From Propionibacterium acidifaciens DSM 21887 (lineage in GTDB: Bacteria; Actinomycetota; Actinomycetes; Propionibacteriales; Propionibacteriaceae), in assembly GCF_000426605.1 (NCBI RefSeq), contig NZ_AUFR01000005.1, positions 1-64,000 on the forward strand: a stretch of 64,000 bases of DNA, written 5' to 3'. The notes under the pieces were generated by a model. It had not been told where the DNA came from. It ran no database searches and saw nothing but the letters and a program-made list of their open reading frames with translations. The translations under genes and the position numbers were made by a program. Positions 16,562-48,990 of this stretch are shown here, one piece after another; the first letter of the stretch is position 1; the number at the start of each line of letters is the position of its first letter.

Positions 16562-18025
16562 TCACAGCCGTCCGCGCAGCCCCTCGATGCGGGCCAGCGT
16601 GGCGGCGCGCCCGAGGATCTGGCAGCTCTCGAACAGCGGCGGGCTGACCCTGCGGCCGCTGATGGCCGTGCGGAGCGGCGCGAAGGCGACGCGGGGCTTG
16701 ACGCCCAGCCCGTCGACGAGCCGGGAGCGCAGGGCCGCCTCGATCGAGTCCGCCTCGAAGGGCTCGAGCGGACCGAGGGCCTCGGTGGTGGCGTCGAGGA
16801 TCCCGGCGACGTCGCCCTTGAGTCGATCGAGCGCCGCGTCCTCGACGACGACCGCGTCGTCGGGGACCGTGAGGAAGGCGATCTGGTCCCAGGCGTCCGA
16901 CAGCTTGACCAGGCGCGGCTTGATCATGCCGGCGGCCGCCCGCACGACGCCCTCCCACGCGGGGTCGGGGTGCTCGCCCCACTGCCGGTTCTCGCCGATG
17001 AACTCGACGAGGCGCTCCCCCAGCTCGGCGTCGTCCAGCTCGCGGATGTAGTGGCCGTTGAGCCAGTCGAGCTTCTTCGTGTCGAAGACCGGGCCGACCG
17101 TGTTGACCTTGCCCCAGTCGAAACCGGCGACGAACTGCTCGAAGGTGCTGATCTCCTCGTCCCCGGGCGCCGGCGGGTAGGCCAGCAGCTGGAGGAAGTT
17201 GCGCAGGGCCTCCGGCAGGTAGCCCTGCTCCTTGAACCACATGAGGCGCGCCGCCGGGTTCTTGCGCTTGGAGATCTTGGAGTGGTCGGGGTTGCGCAGC
17301 AGCGGCATGTGCGCGAACTCCGGCAGCCGCCAGCCGAGCCACTGGTGGAGCAGGACGTGCTTGGGCGTGGAGCTGATCCACTCCTCGCCCCGGACGACCG
17401 TCGTGATGCCCATCCCGTGGTCGTCGACGACGACGGCCAGGTGGTAGGTGGGGAAGCCGTCGGCCTTCATGATGACCTGGTCGTCCGGGAACGGCGCCCG
17501 CACCTCGCCGCGGATGAGGTCGTGGAAGGTGGTGGGCGCGTCGTCGGGGACGAGCATGCGCACGGTGGGGTTCTCGGTGAAGCCGGGCAGCTCGGCGCGC
17601 TCGTCCCTCGTCATGCCGTGGCACAGCCGGTCGTAGCGGGTGTCCTCCTTCCGGGCCGCCTTCTCCTCGCGCATCGCGGCCAGCCGCTCGGGGGAGCACC
17701 AGCAGTGGTAGGCGTGCCCGTCGGCGATGAGCCGGTCGACGACCGGCCGGTAGTGGTCCAGCCGCTCGGACTGCCGGTAGGGGGCGCAGGGCCCGCCGAC
17801 GACCGGCGACTCGTCGGGGTGCAGGCCCAGCCAGTCGAGGGTCTCGACGATCTGCTGCTCGGAGCCCGGGACCAGCCGGTTGCGGTCGGTGTCCTCGATG
17901 CGCAGGATGAACCGGCCCCCGGTCCGCACCGCCCAGGCCTTGTCGAAGAGGGCCATGTAGGCGGTGCCGACGTGCGGATCGCCGGTGGGGGACGGGGCAA
18001 CGCGGGTGCGGGCGGGAGTCGTCAT
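16562..18025 (-). CDS. gltX: Glutamyl-tRNA synthetase
   Basis: A class I aminoacyl-tRNA synthetase that charges tRNA-Glu (and often tRNA-Gln before amidation). It has 487 residues, normal for the family. The HIGH-type motif is in [20 protein letters not shown], followed by RIEDTDRNR; the KMSKS loop reads HSKISKRKN. The ATG at 18025 starts the protein directly at the Rossmann fold. There is no Shine-Dalgarno, and TAGACT (18036-18041, minus) ends 10 nt before the ATG, suggesting a very short or absent leader. It diverges from the umuD remnant. Confidence 0.96.
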
Positions 18026-18061
18026 AGTGGCGCCAAGTCTAGTGGTCGCCGCACCAGGGCC

Positions 18062-18081
18062 TATCATCGAACGCACGTACG
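18062..18081 (+). promoter_or_regulatory. LexA (SOS) box and -10 in front of umuD remnant
   Basis: CGAACGCACGTACG (18068-18081) matches the Gram-positive LexA box CGAACnnnnGTTCG at all but one defined base. It lies directly behind a TATCAT -10 hexamer (18062-18067) and ends 2 nt before the presumed GTG. A repressor bound there would block initiation, as expected for an SOS-controlled umuDC operon. Confidence 0.65.
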
Positions 18082-18083
18082 AC

Positions 18084-18505
18084 GTGAGATCCCTGCTGCG
18101 GGTCGCGCAGCAGGCGGAGGCGGCGCCGGTGCCCGCTGGCCGTCGAGGCCGTCGCGGCGGGCTTCCCCTCGCCCGCGCAGGACTACTTGGGACGGCGACG
18201 TCGACCTCACCGAGCACCTGATCCGCAACCGGCCCGCCACGTTCGTCGTGCGGGTCGCCGGGGGCTCGATGGAGGGGGCGGGCATCTTCGACGGCGGCGA
18301 GCTCATCGTGGACCGCTCCCTGGAGCCCGGCGAGGGCGACGTGGTCATCGCGGTCGTCGAGGGCGAGCTGACCGTCGAGCGCCTCCGTCTGGGCCCGGAC
18401 GGCCCCCGGCTGCACCCGGCCAATGACGCCTATCCGGTGCTGCGCCCCCGCGAGCTGACCGTCTGGGGAGTGGTGACGACGTGCCCGCACCACCTGCACC
18501 GCTGA
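18084..18505 (+). pseudogene. umuD-like S24 peptidase remnant (two frameshifts)
   Basis: UmuD-type proteins are cleaved after DNA damage and partner a Y-family polymerase. Pieces occur in three frames: VRSLLRVAQQAEAAPVP from the GTG at 18084, then LAVEAVAAGFPSPAQDYLG, then GDVDLTEHLIRNRPATFVVR to the stop at 18505. The nucleophile motif GGSMEGAGIFDGGELIVD is intact. The family lysine (usually ...GELTVKRL) reads LTVERL, so the Ser-Lys dyad looks broken as well. The gene cannot make a full-length product from this sequence unless the shifts are assembly errors. It overlaps the umuC remnant. Confidence 0.75.
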
Positions 18506-19044
18506 GGCGCTACGCGCTCGTGGACGTCGACGCGTACTACTCGTGCGAGCGGGTTTCCCACCCCGAGCTGGAGGGCGCCCCGCTGGTGGTGCTGTCCGAC
18601 AACGACGGCTGCGTCATCGCCCGCAGCCGGGAGGCGGCCGGGCTCGGGATCGCGCGGGGCGCGCCGTGGTTCCGGGTCAGGGACGCCGCCGCGCGTGGGC
18701 GTCGTCGCCCGCTCGCCCAACTACGAGCTCCACGGGTCCCTGTTCCACCGGCTCATGGAGCTCCTGCGCACCCTGTCCCCCGTAGTGGAGGCCCACTCGA
18801 TCGACGAGGCCTTCGTCCGGGTGCGGGAGGCCAGCCCGGACGCCCTGGCCGGGGCGGGCCGGCGGATCCGCGCGGGCGGCGCATCGGGGCGCTGCTCGAC
18901 GAGGTCAACGGACAGCTCGGCCGCGGCGCGCTCGGGCTCGGCCTGGCCGGCATGGCCGCCCCGCCGGACCGGCGGATGCGTCGCGGGATGCCCTCCAACC
19001 GGGCCACCATCCGCTGGGACGAGCCGACGCGGGTCCGCGCCTGA
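18481..19044 (+). pseudogene. umuC-like Y-family DNA polymerase remnant
   Basis: Recognisable UmuC pieces lie in different frames. [17 protein letters not shown] (catalytic Asp) and [19 protein letters not shown] come first from the GTG at 18481. Next, [20 protein letters not shown] and [13 protein letters not shown] (catalytic DE) lie in a second frame. Finally [20 protein letters not shown] and a C-terminal [14 protein letters not shown] end occur. About 250 residues of the middle (thumb, little finger) are missing compared with a ~420-residue UmuC. It is therefore frameshifted and internally deleted. Confidence 0.8.
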
Positions 19045-19060
19045 GGGGCGCGGCGGCCTC

Positions 19061-19564
19061 TCACCCGGCGTGGCGCAGGCGCAGCTGGGGGCCCGGGGAG
19101 CGCACCGGCTCGAAGCCGCAGCGCTCCAGGACCGCGAGCGAGGGGCGGTTGCCGGGGTCCACGTCGGCGAGCACGGTCGCGCAGCCGTGGGCGTGCGCCC
19201 ACTCGAGGACGGCCGCCAGCGCCTCGGTCAGGTAGCCCCTGCCCCGGGCGCTCTCCGCGAGGCCGTAGCCGATCTCGGCGGCCCCGCGCAGGTCCGGCGG
19301 GGCGTGGAAGCCGATGTCGCCGACGACCAGGCCGTCGCGGCGCCGCACGATCATGTACATCCCGTAGCCGGGCACCCAGTTGTCGAGCTCGACGGCGGCC
19401 CGGGCCAGGCGGGCGGCGCTGCTCGTGTCTGCGTGCGGGTAGCCGGGCGCGCACGGCAGCGGGCACACCCCCGCGGCGAGCTCCTGGGCCCGGGCCGGGT
19501 CGACGCCGACCAGGTCCAGCCGCCGGGTGCGCAGCGAGATCGGTTGCCAGGGCTGGGCGCTCAT
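19061..19564 (-). CDS. GNAT family N-acetyltransferase (RimJ-like)
   Basis: An acetyl-CoA-dependent acyltransferase of the GNAT fold; the substrate is unknown. It has 167 residues from the ATG at 19564 (a GTG at 19582 is possible). It starts with PISLRTRRLDLVGV, has DGLVVGDIGFHAPPDLRGAA and the acetyl-CoA loop with ARGRGYLTEALAAVLEWA. The C-terminal strand ADVDPGNRPSLAVLERCGFE is typical of RimJ/RimL-like enzymes. It lies alone between the umuC remnant and an oppositely oriented membrane gene. Confidence 0.8.
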   Translation of the reverse strand: MSAQPWQPISLRTRRLDLVGVDPARAQELAAGVCPLPCAPGYPHADTSSAARLARAAVELDNWVPGYGMYMIVRRRDGLVVGDIGFHAPPDLRGAAEIGYGLAESARGRGYLTEALAAVLEWAHAHGCATVLADVDPGNRPSLAVLERCGFEPVRSPGPQLRLRHAG

Positions 19565-19670
19565 GCCCCCATCCTGACGCACCGGGCCTCCCGAGCGGGC
19601 CCCGGGCCGGGACGGCGGCCATGAGGGGACCAGCAGCGGTGACGGGACGGCGGCCGGGGCGTCCGACCCC

Positions 19671-48789: not shown

Positions 48790-48990
48790 CGGCGAACACC
48801 GCCGGGCCGGCAGGTCTTCGGGCTCATGGGCACTCCGGACCACTCCGGCTTCCTCGACCGCTGCTTCCCGGACCCCCGGCCCAGTGCACTCGATGCGGCC
48901 TCGTTCCCACTGACCGCTGCGGGACAGCTCCGGACTCGCACCGGATTCCCTCTTGCGACGATCCACCGACGCCACACACCGACGACGACG
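48790..48990 (-). ncRNA. Cobalamin riboswitch
   Basis: The minus strand carries the hallmark parts in order. GGGAATCCGGTGCGAGTCCG begins at 48950, followed by GAGCTGTCCCGCAGCGG and CAGTGGG. The B12 box AGCCCGAAGACCTGCC (48809-48824) comes near the 3' end. The element ends about 85 nt before the binding-protein ATG, so with adenosylcobalamin bound the five-gene importer should be turned down. No clear terminator follows, so control of translation is likelier. It accounts for most of the 396-bp gap. Confidence 0.92.

Follow-up and report, generated by a model that had tools for sequence, protein, structure and literature searches.

A decayed umuDC operon that keeps its LexA box beside gltX in Propionibacterium acidifaciens

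The closest described counterparts of the operator considered here are actinobacterial LexA boxes such as that of dnaE2-2 in Streptomyces venezuelae, which, in the part of the source available (PMC9380542), is bound by LexA in vitro and fits the consensus tCGAAC-N4-GNNCGa. As for the genes under such operators, the available part of PMC6511836 states that no UmuD had so far been reported from Gram-positive bacteria. In contrast to that statement, the UmuD of Propionibacterium australiense (L048:4527-4952) clears the NCBIfam UmuD cut-off (147.5 vs 110), and some actinobacterial plasmid records among the matches listed show umuD beside umuC. The literature matches listed include no account of umuDC decay in Propionibacterium. 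The locus described here, in P. acidifaciens, is very probably such a case: a pair of decayed umuDC (DNA polymerase V) pseudogenes that would encode no functional polymerase and most likely have no selected role.

The remnant and its intact counterpart

The stretch of DNA analysed (the window, 64,000 nucleotides) is contig 4 of the P. acidifaciens draft genome (G000; 3.04 Mb in 85 contigs). The nearest named relative by gltX is P. australiense (G002; 85% protein identity), whose nucleotide identity to P. freudenreichii and P. acidifaciens is 73.56–84.11% (PMC6256612). In P. australiense umuDC is whole and lies beside gltX, from which it diverges (L048:3256-4952, minus strand); UmuD (142 aa) and UmuC (431 aa) are each encoded in a single frame, and the two genes overlap. 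UmuD there has both the catalytic Ser and the catalytic Lys, and UmuC carries IMS, IMS_C and DUF4113 and spans the whole NCBIfam model, yet scores below its cut-off (343.7 vs 431). The same place in the window holds a umuD-umuC remnant (18062-19044, plus strand), divergent from an intact gltX for glutamyl-tRNA synthetase (16562-18025, minus strand; tRNA-synt_1c E 1.3e-89 and Anticodon_2; 85% identity to P. australiense) and convergent with a GNAT acetyltransferase gene (19061-19582, minus strand; Acetyltransf_3 E 6.4e-23). The place beside gltX, the overlap of umuD with umuC and the LexA-box variant are common to both species, whereas the P. australiense operon is intact, with an ATG in the box and Ser and Lys in place, and the window copy is broken.

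The remnant consists of matching pieces in changing frames, 84% identical in DNA to the P. australiense operon, so that an intact orthologue occupies the position of the decayed pair that the preliminary description had recognised, and the comparison with relatives proposed there finds the whole operon. A UmuD-like piece matches Peptidase_S24 (E 3.9e-17), the UmuC head matches IMS in two frames (E 2.6e-10 and, below the Pfam cut-off, 2.7e-4) and the UmuC tail matches DUF4113 (E 2.3e-7); pieces also match the NCBIfam UmuD and UmuC models with scores under the curated cut-offs. Relative to P. australiense, the umuD remnant (18075-18505) has two frame changes (at about 18128-18133 and 18186-18191). 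The umuC remnant (18481-19044) runs as a head to about 18684, a second piece to 18873 and a tail at 18880-19041; its head has a 3-nt loss, and a frame change falls at about 18685-18697. The middle of umuC is gone: 727 nt of the P. australiense gene, a length that is no multiple of three, are absent between two copies of CCGCGC (microhomology), a single copy of which remains at the junction (18868-18873). The missing segment amounts to UmuC codons 131-374 and takes in IMS_C (259-364 in P. australiense UmuC), leaving IMS pieces and DUF4113 as the matched regions of the window UmuC. Two umuD frameshifts, one umuC frameshift and the lost middle had been noted before, and all are seen in the alignment. 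That lesion list was incomplete, as were its surroundings: ACG (18075-18077, within the LexA box) takes the place of the P. australiense start ATG, a Glu codon (18377-18379) stands where P. australiense UmuD has its catalytic Lys, and the patchy occurrence of umuDC in the family was missing. The Lys column, which we take to be residue 97 of E. coli UmuD, was placed through the E. coli UmuD chains 8gmt_B (Ala there) and 1umu_A (Lys); of the Ser/Lys pair the window copy retains Ser only. Neither a full UmuD nor a full UmuC reading frame is present in the window.

Past the deletion the UmuC tail is back in the frame of the head, so that a single open frame of 187 codons (18481-19044) spans the two. 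Were this frame a live gene, it would encode a short protein joining the two UmuC ends. The frame is open and both ends match UmuC models; moreover, the available parts of PMC6511836 and PMC12926913 place a RecA-like motif in the DUF4113 zone and describe binding of UmuD' by the UmuC tail. The middle of this open frame nevertheless does not follow the UmuC reading frame, DNA of this G+C commonly contains long frames by chance, and 5 of the 13 UmuC changes specific to the window fall in the tail, and we regard such a protein as extremely unlikely. A search of the window against Rfam at gathering scores yielded four matches and none near the remnant, where no described RNA element was thus found; one of the four regions elsewhere, at 48792-48985 on the minus strand, is a cobalamin riboswitch (80.7 bits).

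Decay or sequencing error

A decayed operon in a single assembly may also be an intact operon with sequencing or assembly errors. The frame changes are short, two of them look like a single base added to a short run, and the assembly is an 85-contig draft. Errors of this kind, however, leave unexplained the altered start codon, the replacement of Lys by Glu, the 727-nt deletion with its microhomology and an excess of missense changes in UmuC, and long neighbouring genes keep one frame; the missense changes, the lost start codon and the deletion together lead us to reject this explanation, which we hold to be very unlikely.

The missense excess was measured as departures at alignment columns where 60% or more of the other family homologues (up to 13 for UmuC, up to 12 for UmuD) agree. 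Over 87 UmuC columns, 13 departures are specific to the window, 2 to P. australiense and 9 are common to both (binomial p 0.0037); at the 29 invariant UmuC columns the counts are 4 and 0. UmuD shows no window excess (2 window-only, 2 P. australiense-only and 4 shared departures in 43 columns). Pooled, the two proteins give 15 window-only against 4 P. australiense-only departures (p 0.0096), a signal of relaxed constraint on the window branch that comes from UmuC, since UmuD alone gives 2 vs 2. The intact neighbour gltX, taken as the control gene for constraint, is balanced when compared with 13 other loci (11 window-only, 10 P. australiense-only and 44 shared departures in 363 columns).

The dN/dS of the remnant is 0.46 (0.33-0.63) vs 0.29 (0.21-0.40) for gltX; the ranges overlap, and the remnant lies above gltX in 97.6% of bootstraps. 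Taking gltX as a measure of the former constraint, the neutral share of the two-branch path is 24% (95% range 0-49%), and the loss therefore postdates the species split but is perhaps not young. The description of the loss as recent thus stands insofar as it places the event after the split from P. australiense, but the dN/dS values allow the period of decay to fill much of the branch.

As a control for sequencing error, frame integrity was compared with P. australiense over 55 ORF pairs (17,083 codons), which align in single frames. In 6 of these pairs a mechanically called ORF shows, at its N-terminal end, a second match in another frame. One row (16565-18499) crosses the umuD frame changes antisense without showing them: its indels add up to three, and such a comparison can therefore overlook compensated indels. 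The control, which covers one assembly of P. acidifaciens, is accordingly supportive rather than strict.

The LexA box and the gltX promoter

The box TCGAACGCACGTACGA (18067-18082) has no mismatch to the consensus given for S. venezuelae in the available part of PMC9380542, and its P. australiense counterpart TCGAACTCATGTACGA likewise has none at the specified positions. Scored as a 14-mer (18068-18081) against CGAACN4GTTCG it has one mismatch, in agreement with the 13/14 fit reported earlier; the mismatch vanishes under the S. venezuelae consensus, as given in that part of the source. The window box shares with the dnaE2-2 box both the fit to this consensus and the half-site variant GTAC; it differs in that binding was measured for the S. 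venezuelae box, whereas the window box is predicted from its sequence and lies over a pseudogene. Places with at most one mismatch to the 14-mer are common (151 genome-wide, 51 in the control). Exact 16-mers are fewer, with 36 (14 + 22) in 3.04 Mb against 5 (1 + 4) for the reversed-pattern control, so that about 0.0005 would be expected within some 40 bp of the umuD start site. The box looks genuine, and LexA can probably still bind it. The consensus fit falls in a promoter, represented here by a -10-like hexamer only (TATCAT, 18062-18067, plus strand; TATTAT in P. australiense). The earlier statement that the promoter is kept holds for TATCAT, but a consensus scan of 17900-19150 gave no two-hexamer sigma-70 promoter and no -35 hexamer for umuD or gltX. 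In P. australiense the umuD ATG sits within the box, 7 nt past the -10-like hexamer, and the umuD message is therefore probably leaderless and its block by LexA direct.

Across 13 family UmuD genes, the closest 14-mer in the gene start and the 150 bp or so upstream has 0 or 1 mismatch in 7 genes, 2 mismatches in 2, 3 in 2 and 4 in 2 (G073 and G109). At L127 and L173 the probable start codon of umuD lies within the box, and at L172 and L177 the box comes straight after it; at these four loci LexA would be positioned on the start of a leaderless umuD message. Elsewhere in the P. acidifaciens genome, two exact consensus boxes stand 27 bp apart (G000:C15:43317-43359; L208 and L209), one of them with the GTACG half-site of the window box. 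One neighbouring open frame, compared with Pfam and NCBIfam, gave no family match; the pair possibly marks an unknown SOS gene.

On the other side of the box, a -10-like hexamer for gltX (TAGACT, 18036-18041, minus strand), predicted by reading the sequence, is of the TAGNNT type that precedes many gltX genes among the matches listed. It lies 26 bp from the box, the distance previously reported, and 20 bp separate it from the umuD hexamer; the box is upstream of the gltX -35 zone and not on it. This proximity admits a reading in which gltX now makes use of the dead umuD promoter and its LexA box. Since the umuD promoter region extends across the gltX -10, RNA polymerase could occupy only one of the two promoters, and cleavage of LexA after DNA damage would open the umuD promoter as a decoy and lower gltX. 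The short distances, the full consensus fit of the box and the presence in the genome of LexA and RecA, each gene preceded by a box, speak for it. Against it, intact P. australiense shows the same arrangement, with 25 bp between box and hexamer, and the near-equality of the two distances means that decay did not bring the box to gltX. Nor does the position of the box, upstream of the -35 zone and with no -35 hexamer from the scan for either promoter, favour control of gltX. The persistence of the box proves nothing, because all ten core bases would survive by chance at 84.4% identity with a probability of 0.844^10 = 0.18; on this ground we reject its retention as a mark of selection. Where the DNA around it is 84% identical in any case, the good preservation of an operator over a pseudogene does not count as evidence that it functions. 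We therefore set aside the new effect of the operator on gltX raised in the preliminary description: that the promoter and box now serve gltX is distinctly unlikely, and that a dead umuD promoter with a live LexA box is kept as a decoy, damage bringing RNA polymerase across the gltX promoter and lowering gltX, is if anything a shade less likely still. If true, the decoy reading would tie translation to the SOS response through glutamyl-tRNA synthetase.

A LexA box that pre-existed at gltX throughout the family was also considered and rejected. The sample comprised 67 named gltX loci, 60 with at least 2.2 kb upstream, and 65 usable 150-bp upstream regions (2 were too short). The best 14-mer has one mismatch in only 2 of the 65 (the P. 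australiense locus L048 itself and L097), 2 mismatches in 6, 3 in 19 and 4 in 38. Among the 67 loci umuDC stands beside gltX in P. australiense only, and the arrangement is therefore restricted, in this sample, to these two species.

To return to the pair as decayed umuDC pseudogenes, the ancestor shared with P. australiense would have carried umuDC whole and under LexA control next to gltX; the patchy distribution suggests that the operon had probably arrived by horizontal transfer. On the branch leading to the window the start codon was lost, three frames were broken, 727 nt dropped out between two short repeats, and missense changes arose at positions that are invariant in the other homologues. 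The LexA box would be a passive leftover, probably still bindable by LexA but, as far as can be shown, idle.

umuDC and SOS mutagenesis in the family

A UmuC match (E 7.1e-62 or better) occurs in 15 of 197 Propionibacteriaceae genomes, and umuDC in at least 17 when the window remnant and a tail piece in P. cyclohexanicum (G001) are added, a lower bound that may leave out short pieces. UmuC is near full length in a single frame in 11 genomes. It is broken in G000, G001, G003, G073 (a frame change near the end) and G203 (head missing), and in G198 the gene ends at a contig end. Within Propionibacterium, the G001 tail piece (59 codons, L129:2152-2328) and the G003 piece (L179:2311-3048) resemble the window copy in being broken, but they lie at other genome positions and retain only a tail piece and only the C-terminal half, respectively. 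Over 739 nt the G003 piece shares 88.6% DNA identity with the nearly whole umuC of G073 (L166:3588-4823), from another genus, and its history is therefore separate from that of the window copy. This identity across genera reads as recent exchange of umuDC. The G073 contig carries integrase-like and ParA-like frames, and the G001 piece lies near a transposase-like frame (all named by eye). The best 25 plasmid records among those listed, from a search that covered 5000 records, are all actinobacterial, at 46-50% identity. The simplest reading of umuDC in the family would be acquisition followed by repeated loss.

The family UmuD homologues vary in their catalytic residues: 8 of 13 are without the catalytic Ser, Lys or both (L169, L171, L172, L173, L174, L175, L176 and L177), and the UmuC beside them keeps Asp and Asp-Glu (L169 and L172-L176; L171 and L177 left out). 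HumD of phage P1 is UmuD'-like and needs no cleavage. Three homologues, L174, L175 and L176, may start 13-15 residues before PSPAQDY, vs 30 in P. australiense, and are possibly UmuD'-like proteins that would do without cleavage; none of the three clears the UmuD or the HumD cut-off.

Finally, the P. acidifaciens genome retains the regulators of the SOS response, LexA (TIGR00498) and RecA; recA is preceded by an exact 14-mer box and lexA by one with a single mismatch. A second DnaE is absent from the genome search, which gave one DnaE only; DnaE2 should match the same model as DnaE, and DnaE2 is therefore taken to be absent. The genome search with PF00817 returned only DinB (488 aa) and the remnant, and hence no ImuB, and the stretch of about 1.8 kb upstream of dinB contains no 14-mer box with up to 2 mismatches. 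Loss of SOS mutagenesis in P. acidifaciens appears plausible on these grounds, and the earlier claim to that effect probably holds. umuDC is sporadic in Propionibacteriaceae and has been broken several times; what was lost, given this patchiness, is an accessory gene pair and not a core function, and the remnant represents an ordinary loss of an accessory module. With umuDC intact in P. australiense and dead in P. acidifaciens, the two species offer a clean before-and-after pair for the loss of inducible mutagenesis.
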